From contig NZ_CP059183.1 of NCBI RefSeq assembly GCF_014251275.1, forward strand, positions 521,001-585,000: a DNA stretch of 64,000 nt. The letters are read 5' to 3'. Source of the DNA: Blattabacterium cuenoti (lineage in GTDB: Bacteria > Bacteroidota > Bacteroidia > Flavobacteriales > Blattabacteriaceae). Below the pieces are notes generated by a model. The model had not been told where the DNA came from. It saw only the letters and a program-made list of their open reading frames with translations, and did not search any database. The translations under genes were made by a program, and so were the position numbers. Of the stretch, positions 1,588 through 52,326 are shown one piece after another; position 1 is the first letter of the stretch, and every line of letters starts with the position of its first letter.

Positions 1588-2284
1588 TTTTCTAATAACT
1601 TTTTTTTTTATAAATGAAAAAAAAATTGGAAATATAAATAACACAAATGTAAATACATGAAAAATAATATCTAATGATAAATTTTTTGTATGTACTTTAA
1701 AAAAAGAAAAAATAAGTTTTATTCCAAGAATAATTATTACAAAAAATATTGAATTATTTAATTCCGGAAACTTTTTTACTAATTGTATAAAAAATTTAGC
1801 AATTAATTTAATAGATAAAATACCCGTAAATATTCCAAAAAATATTAATAAATAGTTATCAGATAATGCAACTGAAGCAAATATATTATCAATAGAGAAG
1901 GCCAAATCCATTATTACTATAGTTAATAATACTTTAAAAAAAGATCTTTTTTTATTACTCCTTATAATTTTTTTTTTTTTTTAAAAAATGACTAATTCCA
2001 ATAAATATTAAATATATACCACCCAATAATTTCAACCAATACATTTTAATTAATATAGACATAAATAAAAAACATATTACTCTGAAAAAATAAGCTCCAA
2101 TAATTCCATATTTTATAGCAATTTTTCTATGTTTATCTTTTAAACTTACAATTATAGATGACAACATAATTGCATTATCTATAGATAAAATACTTTCAAT
2201 TAAAAATAAATTTCCTATAATAAATAAAGATAAAATAGGATTTTCAATAATTTCTTTTATATTTTTTTCTAAAAAATAAATCAT
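1579..2284 (-). pseudogene. terC: TerC family membrane protein, split by a poly(A) frameshift
   Basis: Two open segments on the minus strand (2284-1955 and 1911-1579) are the two halves of one TerC-like integral membrane protein. The first half holds SIDNAIML and the second MDLAFSIDN, the duplicated acidic motifs of this metal-ion export family. They are joined by a run of 15 A on the minus strand (1968-1982). Read with one A fewer, the frame continues without a stop through IIRSNKKRSFFKVLLTIV into the second half. As written, the first half ends in KKKKNYKE. It may be a young pseudogene or a gene rescued by slippage at the A-run. The downstream frame is still well conserved, which favours rescue. 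Sequencing error at the homopolymer is also possible. Confidence 0.82.
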
Positions 2285-6455: not shown

Positions 6456-9113
6456 TTATGATCTGCTTATGAAGAAATTTGTTTTCCATTTTGAATAATA
6501 AGGATTTGAATCATTCTTAATATCAATAGGATAACCAATATCTACACCTAAAATTCCTATAGGTTTCCAAAAAATACGAATTCCAAATCCAATAGATTTA
6601 TTCAGAGCAAACCATTTGAATACTTTATTAGTATTAGATGAAGATAACTTATCTAAACTACCTCCTTCAATAAAAAAATTTGTCCATATTTTCATATCAG
6701 ATAAATTTTTTATTAAATATCTTGTTTCTAAAATAAATTTCTTATAAAAATTTCCTCCAGAATATGGTGTTATATATTTAGTTTTTGATTTTGGAAAAGA
6801 ATATCCACGAAGAGAAATATGATTGTCAGAATCTTTTGCTTCTGTTCCACCCATATAGAATCTTTGAAATGGTAATAAAAGTTCTTCTTCTCTTAATTTA
6901 TATGGTAATATACATCCCATTTTTCCTTCTAATTTTAATACTAAATCTTTAACAATTTCTTTATACCAGTCATATTGAACTTTAAATTTAAAATATTCCA
7001 ACCACCGTTTATCTTCAGTAGTTTCTTTATAAATATTGCTACTGTTATTATTATATTTATCCTTTTTTTTACTATTATAAATCATAGAATACGGAAAAGA
7101 AAACTCACTATCAAAAATAAAATTTTGCCCTTCTAATGGAAAAATGTCATTAGGTTTAGTAGTATCTTTTTGTACTAAAAAAGTAGTACTTAAATTATTA
7201 AAATCATATTTATAATTATTATGATTAAAAGTCTTATATATATATTTTTCTCCATTAACAGATATTGACATACTAGTATAAGGATATAAATGGTTTAGCC
7301 ATTTATATAAAAGAATTGACCCAAATTTTTTTTGAAAAATGTATTTTTCTCCAAAAAAAATATTTAAAGGTTTATTTGAATATAATGAATAATGATCCAT
7401 TATCAAATCTTTAGTTGAATATCCAGTATTTACAGTGAGTGATACTGGATTTTTTTCATTAATGCAAGGTTCTGAAAAAGAAATTCCATATGATCTAGAA
7501 TATTTTCCTAATTGACTATATATACTCAATTTTTGTCCATCTCCTTGAGGAATAGGATTCCAATATTTCCAATCCATAAGATTTTTAATAGAAAAATTAT
7601 TAAAATTGAATCTTAATTTTCCAATGAATTCTCTAATGTTTTCTCTTTCTCCTCCTAATCCAAACTGAAATTGAAATTCATTTACACTTTTTTCTTTTAC
7701 ATTCCATATTATATTTACAGTGTTGTTATCAGTGTTATTATTATCATGTATAAATTTGAAAGATATATCATCAAATAAATCTAATTCTTCTAAATTACTA
7801 ATACTTTCCTTTATTTTTTCAGGAGAAAAAATATCTCCGGTAAAAGTCTTTAATTTCCTTCTAATAACATAATCTTTTGTAATCTTATTTCCTGTTATTT
7901 TTATTTCTTTTAAATAAATAGGTTTATCTTCCTCTATTATAATATCTAAATCAATTTTATTACAATCTAGTTTCTTTTTTTCCATAGAAAAAACTTTAGA
8001 AAATAAGTTACCTAATCTTAAATAAGAATAAACGATACTAGAAGAAGATGATAAAGAAGTATTAAATATATTTTTCATTATTTGTTCTCTATCATAAACA
8101 TCTCCCTCTTTATAATAAAGAACATTTTTTAAAAAACTATCATCTAGAATATTATTTCCATAAATATTTACTTTTCCAAGATAATATTTTTTTCCTTCAT
8201 CAATCTTTATTTTTATTCCATAATTTCCAGACGGTTTTTTCCAAATAGAATTTAAAAATACGTCAACATATCTAAAACCCAAAGATTGGTAATTTTTCTT
8301 TATATTTTTTATATCTTTTTTTATATTATCCTCAATGAAAACATAAATTGGTTTTTTTACCATAGGTATGAAAAAACTCTCTTTTACTTCATTCATAAAA
8401 TCTAGTAATTCATTATCACTAAATATTTTATTTCCTTCAAATACTATTTCTTCTATCTCTATTTTTTTTCCTTTATTAATGACAAAATGTAATATATTTC
8501 TATTATTTATATTTTTGATAATGTTATTTGATTTTATAAATGCTTCATTGTAACCTTTCTTTTCGTAATCATCTATTATTTCATTTTTTATATCTTGTAT
8601 ATCATTATAAGATATTTTATATCCAGGATAAATCATTTTTTTTCCAAAAAGTAAATAATTATTTTCTTTCATTTTTCCATCATTATCATTTTCATATTCA
8701 TCTATTTTTACTTCATCTATCTCTATTAAATCATATAAACAAAAAAATAAATCAATTTCTTTTTCGTTATTATACTTATTTTCCTTATATATTGATATAT
8801 TGTTAAATAGTTTTTTATTCCACAAATTAATAATAGCCATATCTATATTACTTTGGTTTATAGTGTCTCCAATATATATTCCAGATATTTTAGATATAAA
8901 ATCTATATCGTATTTAGTTTTTCCAATTAAACGTATATTTTTCACAATGAAATTTTTATTAGAAAAATCATCATCTGTTTTTTGTACATAATGTTCCTTA
9001 TTATAATCTTTAGTCTCTGTAATCTCTGTTGCTTTAGATAACATATTCCATTTATGAAAAATTATTACAACAAAAAAACATAATAAAAATTTTGAAAATA
9101 TTTTATTTTTCAT
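6456..9113 (-). CDS. bamA: Outer membrane protein assembly factor BamA
   Basis: The 885-residue protein begins with a hydrophobic signal segment (about 6-20, FSKFLLCFFVVII). Several POTRA-like repeats follow to about residue 480, with recurring patterns such as EGNKIF, GNNILDDSFLK and TGNKITKDYVI. A C-terminal beta-barrel contains the family patch GYSFPKSK around residue 775 (RGY at the conserved position). BamA inserts barrel proteins into the outer membrane. Its gene closes a minus-strand operon nadK-uppS-bamA, with 10 bases after uppS; uppS beside bamA is a standard flavobacterial arrangement. Its presence shows that an outer membrane is retained despite genome reduction. Confidence 0.93.
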   Translation of the reverse strand: MKNKIFSKFLLCFFVVIIFHKWNMLSKATEITETKDYNKEHYVQKTDDDFSNKNFIVKNIRLIGKTKYDIDFISKISGIYIGDTINQSNIDMAIINLWNKKLFNNISIYKENKYNNEKEIDLFFCLYDLIEIDEVKIDEYENDNDGKMKENNYLLFGKKMIYPGYKISYNDIQDIKNEIIDDYEKKGYNEAFIKSNNIIKNINNRNILHFVINKGKKIEIEEIVFEGNKIFSDNELLDFMNEVKESFFIPMVKKPIYVFIEDNIKKDIKNIKKNYQSLGFRYVDVFLNSIWKKPSGNYGIKIKIDEGKKYYLGKVNIYGNNILDDSFLKNVLYYKEGDVYDREQIMKNIFNTSLSSSSSIVYSYLRLGNLFSKVFSMEKKKLDCNKIDLDIIIEEDKPIYLKEIKITGNKITKDYVIRRKLKTFTGDIFSPEKIKESISNLEELDLFDDISFKFIHDNNNTDNNTVNIIWNVKEKSVNEFQFQFGLGGERENIREFIGKLRFNFNNFSIKNLMDWKYWNPIPQGDGQKLSIYSQLGKYSRSYGISFSEPCINEKNPVSLTVNTGYSTKDLIMDHYSLYSNKPLNIFFGEKYIFQKKFGSILLYKWLNHLYPYTSMSISVNGEKYIYKTFNHNNYKYDFNNLSTTFLVQKDTTKPNDIFPLEGQNFIFDSEFSFPYSMIYNSKKKDKYNNNSSNIYKETTEDKRWLEYFKFKVQYDWYKEIVKDLVLKLEGKMGCILPYKLREEELLLPFQRFYMGGTEAKDSDNHISLRGYSFPKSKTKYITPYSGGNFYKKFILETRYLIKNLSDMKIWTNFFIEGGSLDKLSSSNTNKVFKWFALNKSIGFGIRIFWKPIGILGVDIGYPIDIKNDSNPYYSKWKTNFFISRS

Positions 9114-16334: not shown

Positions 16335-16372
16335 ATTTTATTGTTACATAATAACAGAATTTATATTATTTT

Positions 16373-16633
16373 TTATTTTTTTTGTGAATTATTTTTTTCA
16401 ATTAAAATATATTCTATGGCCTGTATAGCGTCCCCTACAGTGGTAATTCTCTCTGCTTTTTCATCAGGAATACTAATATCAAACTCTTTTTCAAATTCCA
16501 TTATAAGTTCAACTATATCTAATGAATCTGCTCCTAAATCGTTAGTAAAACGAGTATTAGAAAAAATTTCATTTTTTTCTATACTTAGTTTATCTACGAT
16601 AATGGCATGAACTCTAGATGCAATATCAGACAT
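16373..16633 (-). CDS. acpP: Acyl carrier protein
   Basis: The 86-residue acidic protein has the phosphopantetheine attachment serine in [15 protein letters not shown]. It carries growing acyl chains for FabF, FabG and FabZ, all of which are encoded in this window. It is the first gene of acpP-fabF-rnc. Upstream lies the long gap at 16634-17378, which must hold its promoter. The tail NNSQKK is slightly longer than usual. Confidence 0.96.
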
Positions 16634-20144: not shown

Positions 20145-20150
20145 ATATTT

Positions 20151-22751
20151 GTGGAAATAGAAAAAATAATAAGAAATATATCGTCATTTTTTGATGATGG
20201 AAAAACTTTAAAAAAACGATTTATATTCATATCAAAAGATTCTACTTTTATAGAATTATTATCAAATGAATATAATGCTAATTTTAAAAATACAAAAACT
20301 AAATTTTTTACAATAGAAAAATTCTTAGAAAAGATTTCTGGATTAAAAAAAATAGATAATTATTATATCTTTCTTCATTTTCTTTATTTTTTAAAGGAAA
20401 GTGATTTTTTAGTAAAAAAATCTTTAGAATATTTAAAATGGATTCCTAATATTTTATATGATATACAAAATATTGATTTTAATATTGATAAATTTTTCTC
20501 AAATATTATTTCTACAGAAACAATAAAAAAATGGAAGTGTAAAAATTCTTTTTATAAAGAAAATCCTTTTATATTTTGGGATATTATTAAAAAGTATTAT
20601 TATTTAATACATTCTCAACTAATTATAAAAAGAATAATTTATAAAGAATTACTTTTTAAAAAAGTAGTTCCTAATCTATATAATTTTTTATCAAATAGTT
20701 CATGTGAAGAGATTATATTTTTTTTTAGAAAAGATTTCATTTTTAATAAATGGGAAAATAATTTTATAAAAAAAATAAAGGAATACCATAAAGGATACTT
20801 ATATGAATTATCTATGAAAAAATTTTTTACAAAAGATTACATTATAAAATATAATGATAATAAAATTAATAATTTTTCAAAATTGAAAATAATAAGTGTT
20901 TCTAAAGAAATAGAACAAGTAAAAATTTTAGAAAAAATAATACGTAAATTTATTAAAAAAAAAAAGACAAAAACCCATAATAATATATTAATAATTCCAG
21001 GAGATATAAATCTTATAATTCCTATAATTTACTCTGTAAACAATATTTTAAAAATAAAAATATCATTCGATATAGATTATCCCTTTAAAATAATTCCTAT
21101 TAATTATACTTTTCAATCTATTTTTAAATTTTTATTGAATAAACATTCAAAAAATATACTAATAAAACAATACATAAAAAATTTATTGTTAGATGGATAT
21201 ATAAAAAAATTTTTTTCTAAAAATGATATTGGAATTATTTTTCAAATAAACACACTAAACATAAAAAATGTTTTAATAGGGATTTTAAGTATAGTAAGAA
21301 AATTTAAAAATTATTTGTTTTATAATGTAAAAAAACATTTTTTAGAATTAAAATTTCTTTCTAAATTAGAAAAATTTATTTTAAAAATTAAAATAATAAC
21401 AAGGATAAAAAATAAATTTTCATTTAAAATTAACGATTTTTACCACATGTATGAACAGTTTGTTAAAACTGGAAAAATACGTTATAAAACTATAAACAAA
21501 AAAGGATTATTTGTTAAAGAATTTACAGATAATTTCATAGAAAAATTTGATTTAACAATAATAACTTCTTTTAATAGTGGAGTAATTCCTCCAAAAAAAA
21601 AAAAATTTTCTTATATTCCATTTGATATTAAAAAAAAATTTAATATTAATTCTTATAATAATAATAATGATTATTACTTTCTTAATTTTATAAGAATTTA
21701 TAAATCTTCAAAAAAAACATTTCTTTTATTCAAAACCCACCCAGATGAAATAAATAATGGAGAAAGCAGTCCATTTATTAAAAAATTAAAAATTATATCA
21801 AAATTATCAATTGAAAATAAAATGTTTAATATTTCTAATAATATTATAGAAAATCCTATTATAATTAGTAAAACTAAATCTTTTCTTAATTCTTTACACA
21901 ATCTTGTAAATAGTGGGATCTCTCCAAGTTCTATAAAATTATATAATAAAAACCCAATATTTTTTTATTGCAAAAAAATATTAAAAATAAATGAACAAGA
22001 AGAAAAAGAAAAATTTCCCAGAATAATAATAGGAAAAATTATTCATAAAATACTAAAAATATTATATTCCTCTATAATAGGAAATAATATTACTATTGAT
22101 TGGATTAAAGAAAAAAAAAGTATAATAGACATCATAATAAATAAATTTTTTTTAGAAGAAAATAAAACAATAAGTGGAGAAAACATGTTATTATACTTTA
22201 TAATAAAAAATTATATAAAAAATTTTCTTTCATGGGACGAAAAATATATTAAAAATGGGCACAATATTATTATAAAAAAAATAGAATATAAAACATCTAC
22301 TTTATTAAAAATAAAATCTAAAAAAGTAAAATTACATGGGATAATAGATCGTATAGATGAATTAGATGGAAAAATAAGAATTATTGATTATAAAATAGGG
22401 ATTTCAAAAAGAAAATCAATAAACATTTATAAAGAAGATGTTAAAGATATTTTTATTAATCCAAAATACGAAAATATTATGCAATTACTTATCTATACAT
22501 ATTTATGGTTTAGTTCTAATATGATAAATAAAAAATATTCACCTTTAATAGGAATTGTTTCTCCTATACAATCAATGGATAATTCTATATTTAAAATTCC
22601 AATAAACTTTTTTTTTAAAGAAAAATATAATATAACATACAAAAATTATAAAGAATATTTTCTTCCTCATCTATTATATAGAATTTCAGAAATTTTGGAT
22701 CCTAAAATTCCAATAGTAGAAAAACTTATTGATTATCAATATATTTCTTAA
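20151..22751 (+). CDS. AddB/RecB-like PD-(D/E)XK nuclease family protein
   Basis: The 866-residue protein starts with GTG. The C-terminal quarter has a RecB-type nuclease core: GKIIHKILKILY carrying the histidine, then HGIIDRIDELDGKIRIIDYKIG giving the D...DYK catalytic set. The middle has UvrD-like remnants (VVSFNSGVIPPKK-type segment and TFLLFKTHPDEI). It resembles the AddB-like partner of helicase-nucleases that repair double-strand breaks in Bacteroidetes. An A13 run at 21593-21605 lies in frame. The gene follows ribF and ends in a 26-base convergent overlap with leuB. No AddA partner is in this window. Confidence 0.75.
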   Translation: MEIEKIIRNISSFFDDGKTLKKRFIFISKDSTFIELLSNEYNANFKNTKTKFFTIEKFLEKISGLKKIDNYYIFLHFLYFLKESDFLVKKSLEYLKWIPNILYDIQNIDFNIDKFFSNIISTETIKKWKCKNSFYKENPFIFWDIIKKYYYLIHSQLIIKRIIYKELLFKKVVPNLYNFLSNSSCEEIIFFFRKDFIFNKWENNFIKKIKEYHKGYLYELSMKKFFTKDYIIKYNDNKINNFSKLKIISVSKEIEQVKILEKIIRKFIKKKKTKTHNNILIIPGDINLIIPIIYSVNNILKIKISFDIDYPFKIIPINYTFQSIFKFLLNKHSKNILIKQYIKNLLLDGYIKKFFSKNDIGIIFQINTLNIKNVLIGILSIVRKFKNYLFYNVKKHFLELKFLSKLEKFILKIKIITRIKNKFSFKINDFYHMYEQFVKTGKIRYKTINKKGLFVKEFTDNFIEKFDLTIITSFNSGVIPPKKKKFSYIPFDIKKKFNINSYNNNNDYYFLNFIRIYKSSKKTFLLFKTHPDEINNGESSPFIKKLKIISKLSIENKMFNISNNIIENPIIISKTKSFLNSLHNLVNSGISPSSIKLYNKNPIFFYCKKILKINEQEEKEKFPRIIIGKIIHKILKILYSSIIGNNITIDWIKEKKSIIDIIINKFFLEENKTISGENMLLYFIIKNYIKNFLSWDEKYIKNGHNIIIKKIEYKTSTLLKIKSKKVKLHGIIDRIDELDGKIRIIDYKIGISKRKSINIYKEDVKDIFINPKYENIMQLLIYTYLWFSSNMINKKYSPLIGIVSPIQSMDNSIFKIPINFFFKEKYNITYKNYKEYFLPHLLYRISEILDPKIPIVEKLIDYQYIS

Positions 22752-44760: not shown

Positions 44761-44891
44761 TTTTATTTTTATTCAATTTTATTTTTATTCAATTTTATTT
44801 TTATTCAATTTTATTTTTATTCAATTTTATTTTTATTCAATTTTATTTTTATTCAATTTTATTTTTATTCAATTTTATTTTTATTCAATTT
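44761..44891. repeat. 16-bp tandem repeat array, about eight units
   Basis: Seven full copies of ATTCAATTTTATTTTT start at 44771, 44787, 44803, 44819, 44835, 44851 and 44867, with partial copies on both sides (44761-44770 and 44883-44891). All full copies are identical. The array fills the spacer between the divergent DUF2795 and fmt genes, starting 12 bases before the DUF2795 start codon. Confidence 0.95.
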
Positions 44892-51898: not shown

Positions 51899-52326
51899 AT
51901 GAATAATTTCATAAAACATTATCTATGTTTGAAAAAAACTAAAGAAAAAAATTATATATTTTGTACAATTAGAAAAAAATTTGTTCTTTTTAAAAAAGAA
52001 GAAATAACACGTCAATACATAATTTTTTTACTAAAAACTGTTAAAAATTATAAAAATTCAAATATTTTTGTAGAAACTTCTATACGTATACAAAAAATTA
52101 TAAAAAGATTAGATATACTAGTCTTAGATAAAAAAAAAATCCTTACATACTTATTGAATGTAAATCACAATTTATTAATATAACACAAAAAACGTTTGAT
52201 CAAATATCTATGTATAATACTGTCGTAAATGCTCCATATTTATGGATAAGTAACGGAAAAAAAAGTTTTATTTTTAAAATTGATAAAATAAAAAAAAAGT
52301 TTTTTTTTATAAAATACATTCCATAA
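51899..52326 (+). pseudogene. HsdR N-terminal-domain-like PD-(D/E)XK protein, split at a poly(A) run
   Basis: A plus-strand frame opens at 51899 (with FCTIRKKFVLFKKEEITRQY), and shifts at a run of ten A (52130-52139). Beyond it, another frame continues with PYILIECKSQF, TQKTFDQISMYNTVV and APYLWISNGKKSF to TAA at 52326. Joined, it makes about 142 residues matching a small conserved flavobacterial protein related to the HsdR N-terminal domain. The nuclease motif is shared across the break: RLDILVLD supplies the aspartate and IECK the E-x-K. One extra A would restore the frame. The function is unknown, and it is not a full restriction enzyme. Confidence 0.82.

Follow-up and report, generated by a model that had tools for sequence, protein, structure and literature searches.

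The split gene and its reading frames

The window, that is, the whole stretch of 64,000 nucleotides from the Blattabacterium cuenoti genome analysed here, carries on its forward strand, between trxB and gap, a gene that is split between two reading frames at a run of A's. The sequence-only reading had claimed that a 10-A run at 52130-52139 breaks a nuclease-like gene, and we found exactly ten A's at these positions (GAT on the 5' side, TCC on the 3' side) together with two frames of one gene. The features of the locus are as follows.

51899-52183, + strand: 0-frame ORF of 94 aa, comprising the N half of an HSDR_N_2 protein, followed by 14 codons in the wrong frame and a stop
52112-52114, + strand: codon of the catalytic Asp D72 (RLD), invariant in a 33-sequence alignment
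52130-52139, + strand: A10 run, the point of the frame break; by frame arithmetic the halves would be joined by an A11 or A8 transcript or by a -1 ribosomal slip
52138-52326, + strand: C half in the -1 frame, with E-x-K and QxxxY; 62 codons, TAA at 52324-52326
52156-52164, + strand: codons of E87-C88-K89 (ExK motif), invariant in the alignment; E87 at 52156-52158, K89 at 52162-52164
52201-52215, + strand: codons of Q102 to Y106 (QxxxY motif), with Q102 and Y106 invariant in the alignment

The 0 frame starts at ATG 51899 and reads MNNFIKHYL...KRLDILVLDKKK, then ILTYLLNVNHNLLI up to its stop at 52181-52183. The -1 frame translates as NPYILIECKSQF...IKYIP and a stop, ending at 52326, and the read downstream of the run begins NPYILIECKSQFINITQKTFDQISMYN. 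Many stops interrupt the third frame across the gene, and ATG, GTG and TTG are all absent from the downstream frame 5' of ExK. An A11 transcript or a -1 slip would give the junction DKKKNPY, and an A8 transcript, with two A's fewer, DKKNPY. The gene is single-copy in this single-contig genome of 594,902 bp, a second copy being absent.

Family, predicted fold and active site

The N half alone matched PF13588 (HSDR_N_2) over profile positions 1-49 (4.7e-8), the C half alone over positions 48-110 (5.1e-17), and the joined product over positions 1-110 (1.4e-29, 102.8 bits, against a gathering cut-off of 25 that each half alone also exceeded), in agreement with the earlier statement that both sides of the break are recognisable; a search of NCBIfam gave no match. 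Across 33 relatives R25, E34, E35, R38, Q39, D72, E87, C88, K89, Q102 and Y106 were invariant, and the joined window protein has them all. As the sequence-only reading had stated, the Asp lies in front of the run and the E-x-K behind it; Q102 and Y106, which it did not mention, lie behind the run as well and form what we take to be the QxxxY motif of HsdR/RecB-type nucleases.

When the intact protein of the sister genome was modelled with AlphaFold (pLDDT 93.9, pTM 0.88), the closest structure was the nuclease part of BsaXI (Z 13.7, 142 residues, rmsd 2.9), followed by the HsdR fragment 3h1t (Z 12.1); sequence profiles likewise reached BsaXI and the HsdR of EcoR124I. D72 lies on strand 67-76 of this model and E87 and K89 at the end of strand 82-88, and the A run is accordingly modelled as encoding the turn that links these strands. 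The modelled fold and this D...ExK arrangement on adjacent strands place the protein in the PD-(D/E)XK superfamily as a predicted nuclease, and the model lends support to the split PD-(D/E)XK site that had been proposed from the letters. That the whole site would occur only in slipped products, which had been proposed as well, is a direct consequence of the sequence, since the unslipped fragment of 94 aa, being without ExK, cannot carry the catalytic site. With the nuclease domains of HsdR (3h1t, EcoR124I) and BsaXI the protein shares the predicted fold (Z 12-14) and the D...ExK arrangement, but the gene here stands alone at 142 aa, without a helicase or methyltransferase partner. Assignment as the HsdR subunit of a type I restriction enzyme was rejected, as the protein has a length of about 142 aa, HSDR_N_2 was the sole domain found in it and the helicase motor is absent. 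The gene product is thus predicted to be an orphan HsdR N-terminal PD-(D/E)XK domain of about 142 aa, nuclease-like in its motifs and modelled fold.

The break among relatives

The sequence-only reading had suggested an alignment with intact flavobacterial homologues, and every one of the 48 other genomes in the genus has the gene in one unbroken frame across the active site. Those genomes are similar in size to this one, and three relatives identified by sequence are Blattabacterium cuenoti chromosomes, which points to a cockroach endosymbiont or something very near to one. Across the order 196 genomes were sampled and 195 had the domain, among them those of three symbionts of the same family with only 0.3 Mb each. 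Judged by these comparisons, this appears to be a conserved single-copy gene that is broken at this site in one lineage. The HSDR_N_2 (PF13588) orphans of other Flavobacteriales have the same domain, conserved residues and size, but theirs are unbroken through the active site and adjoin holA (DNA polymerase III delta) in the four free-living loci examined, whereas the gene here is split and lies between trxB and gap. A literature search on the orphan family and holA yielded nothing useful. In G063, a symbiont from the same family with a genome of 345 kb, the holA beside this gene (L102:830-1551, - strand) itself appears in two frames, possibly at an A run too.

In the closest sequenced relative (G038, AMAZOsp, NZ_CP059220) the site reads ACT-A8-T, in frame, and the loop is as long as in the A11 reading of the window. 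The turn encoded by the A run varies in length among relatives, so a residue gained or lost should be tolerated there. The most parsimonious history would be a lengthening of the run in this lineage, followed there by a change of one A. In other genomes the same gene contains long A runs that are in frame, namely A16 in G032, A13 in G039 and A12 in G035; the G032 copy (L047) has T10 followed by A16 within the coding sequence, in frame in the genome, and its transcripts should slip heavily. Another relative, G045 (L049), has independently lost a single A (A6 to A5) close to the 3' end; this changes roughly the last 25 residues, which lie beyond the active-site motifs.

The comparison with relatives also bears on how the two halves might be joined. 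A -1 ribosomal frameshift on A AAA AAA, as in dnaX, would yield the same product as A11; the slippery heptamer lies within the run and the required shift is -1. However, the downstream fold is unstable (z +0.62, 143 of 200 shuffles folding at least as well), a Shine-Dalgarno-like stimulator upstream was not seen by eye, and the arrangement is absent from the relatives, all 48 of which read the site in one frame. We rejected assignment to the programmed -1 frameshifting class, in which the slippery run would be accompanied by a stimulatory structure and a conserved arrangement, neither of which was found, and regard ribosomal joining of the halves as very improbable.

Constraint on the 3' half

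Of the columns conserved at 90% or more, the window sequence keeps 20 of 22 in the 3' half and 26 of 28 in the 5' half, the average among relatives being about 96%, and one of the two 3' changes, M116W, is common to G038 and G029. The terminal branch in the tree of the 3' half was unremarkable (rank 14 of 48, zero-based), and third codon positions differed most from G038 (about 0.35 against 0.16-0.18 at the others). The 62 codons of the 3' half are without a stop, whereas shuffled sequence of the same composition was open in 0.1% of cases. In a neutral simulation all 20 residues survived 0.1 substitutions per site in <1% of runs, which bounds unselected drift at no more than about 0.05-0.1 substitutions per site, a rough bound given that an AT-biased substitution model was assumed and only the 20 conserved residues still in the window were used. 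These results leave two alternatives, a very recent break or continuing selection on the 3' half. Relaxed substitution downstream of the run, which the sequence-only reading had named as evidence against its proposal, did not appear as far as this could be tested, although a very recent break would look alike.

This leaves room for a recent loss or a standing polymorphism, with a break so young, or confined to a part of the symbiont population, that decay does not show yet, and a gene on its way out. The restriction of the break to this genome, the 0.05-0.1 unselected substitutions per site that the simulation allows and the independent deletion in G045 are consistent with such a loss. Against it, the gene is near-universal in the order, and the survey described below, which took in about 45% of the genome, turned up three conserved genes with the same kind of break, all at A10 or longer and with no further decay, so that three very recent losses would be needed. 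We consider a recent loss possible but unlikely.

Other homopolymer breaks in the genome

We surveyed about 265 of the 595 kb, or some 45% of the genome, for frameshifts by tblastn against a divergent sister, with detection thresholds that could overlook breaks close to gene ends. Three homopolymer frame breaks stood out: the A10 described here and two at A14 and A15.

Window 1603-2284, - strand: split gene for a TerC family membrane protein, A15 at 1968-1982; both halves match Pfam TerC, and 48 of 48 relatives are unbroken
G000:C1:426532-426940 (L067), - strand: thioesterase-like gene, in two halves in this genome, split at A14 near G000:426,706

Each of the 48 relatives matches the thioesterase-like gene once and over its full length; in two, a stop falls at the end of the match and nowhere else. 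Over about 227 kb of homologous coding sequence we counted sense runs of A10 (53), A11 (16), A12 (1), A13 (7), A14 (2) and A15 (2), and 52 of the 53 coding A10 runs appeared unbroken; at the shorter runs the survey gave no other break that held up on inspection. An A10 run is ordinary in this genome, and a frame break at such a run is uncommon.

Indel errors occur most often in homopolymers, and the chromosome may truly have A11 (or A8) and an intact gene, the break being an error of sequencing or assembly. The other two breaks lie at A14 and A15, lengths that are hard to size with short reads, which fits such an error. A single break among 53 coding A10 runs, with none noticed by the survey at 408 coding A8-A9 runs, argues against a systematic homopolymer error, and we judge an error at this site to be decidedly improbable.

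Several further flagged frame changes were rejected on inspection: at 16361-16407 (acpP/fabF neighbours), at 44761-44891 (a 16-bp tandem repeat and a DUF2795-like gene) and near G000:337,000 (ORFs antisense to rRNA). The repeat at 44761-44891 is perfect, comprises 8.2 copies (TTTTATTTTTATTCAA) and lies just upstream of the minus-strand DUF2795-like gene. Loss of mismatch repair was rejected as a cause, since this genome and all 48 relatives have the MutS and MutL domains in long frames without a break. The sister genome G038 has a T10 frame break of its own (L055 about 7700-8050, G038 about 533,600-534,050) in the ortholog of an 868-aa ORF at window 20145-22748.

A tolerated indel with probable partial rescue

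The constrained halves, the position of the run in a loop and the repetition of such breaks in unrelated genes make partial rescue the simplest explanation. We favour, with a probability of roughly 0.6, a poly-A indel that is tolerated because transcriptional slippage partly rescues the gene, a case of tolerated damage and not a regulatory device. By comparison with the sister genome, the run would have grown in the loop between the catalytic strands, and replication slippage would then have shifted it by one A and broken the frame. RNA polymerase most probably slips on A10, so that a minority of mRNAs would be A11 or A8 and give the full-length protein, and the remaining mRNAs would give the 94-aa fragment without ExK. 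Such partial rescue would make the indel bearable, leave some residual function and keep the 3' half under purifying selection. Two marks of slippage-rescued genes are present at the locus: a single indel in a long homopolymer of an otherwise intact, conserved gene, and constraint that is not relaxed downstream, the second of which a very recent break would display too.

The sequence-only reading had also entertained a coupling of nuclease-like activity to slippage frequency. This idea gained no positive support, as the break is found in this genome only, a stimulatory RNA structure is lacking and two unrelated genes are broken alike. A more specific form would be dose control, in which the out-of-frame run and polymerase slippage hold down a nuclease that is harmful at full dose, and the tolerance of the loop for A8 and A11 fixes the active fraction. 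Since relatives do not share the arrangement, nothing supports a role as a switch or in dose control, and we hold dose control to be extremely unlikely.

Precedents and significance

Poly-A frameshifts in Buchnera and Blochmannia are described as being relieved by polymerase slippage, which brings a part of the transcripts back into frame (Tamas et al. 2008; Wernegreen et al. 2010, as presented through PMC3017870, PMC5009743 and PMC3971599). In Blochmannia vafer eight genes have homopolymer frameshifts, and the four that are frameshifted only there have not evolved unusually fast (PMC3017870); among the symbionts of aphids and ants 12-50% of the transcripts from such genes are corrected (PMC5009743). 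As far as these accounts describe it (Tamas et al. 2008; Wernegreen et al. 2010; Williams and Wernegreen 2010, PMC3017870), the gene here resembles those cases in its single indel in a long A run, in being otherwise intact and conserved, and in belonging to an AT-rich obligate insect symbiont with several such genes per genome. It differs in coming from a flavobacterial cockroach symbiont, in being an orphan PD-(D/E)XK gene and in having a break that is not conserved between species, and the corrected transcripts were measured in those other symbionts. Candidatus Walczuchella monophlebidarum, also a flavobacterial insect symbiont, has homopolymer-frameshifted pseudogenes that are suggested to have kept their function, which is there a suggestion only and concerns another host group and other genes (PMC3971599). 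By analogy, the break is of a kind already known from other insect symbionts, and the gene is a candidate further case.

If the favoured explanation is true, slippage rescue, documented in the gammaproteobacterial symbionts of ants and aphids, would also operate in flavobacterial cockroach symbionts, where a single genome offers at least three candidate genes, and this would caution against calling such genes lost. The orphan nuclease-like gene, retained even in 0.3-Mb symbionts and located by holA in several free-living relatives, is worth study in itself.
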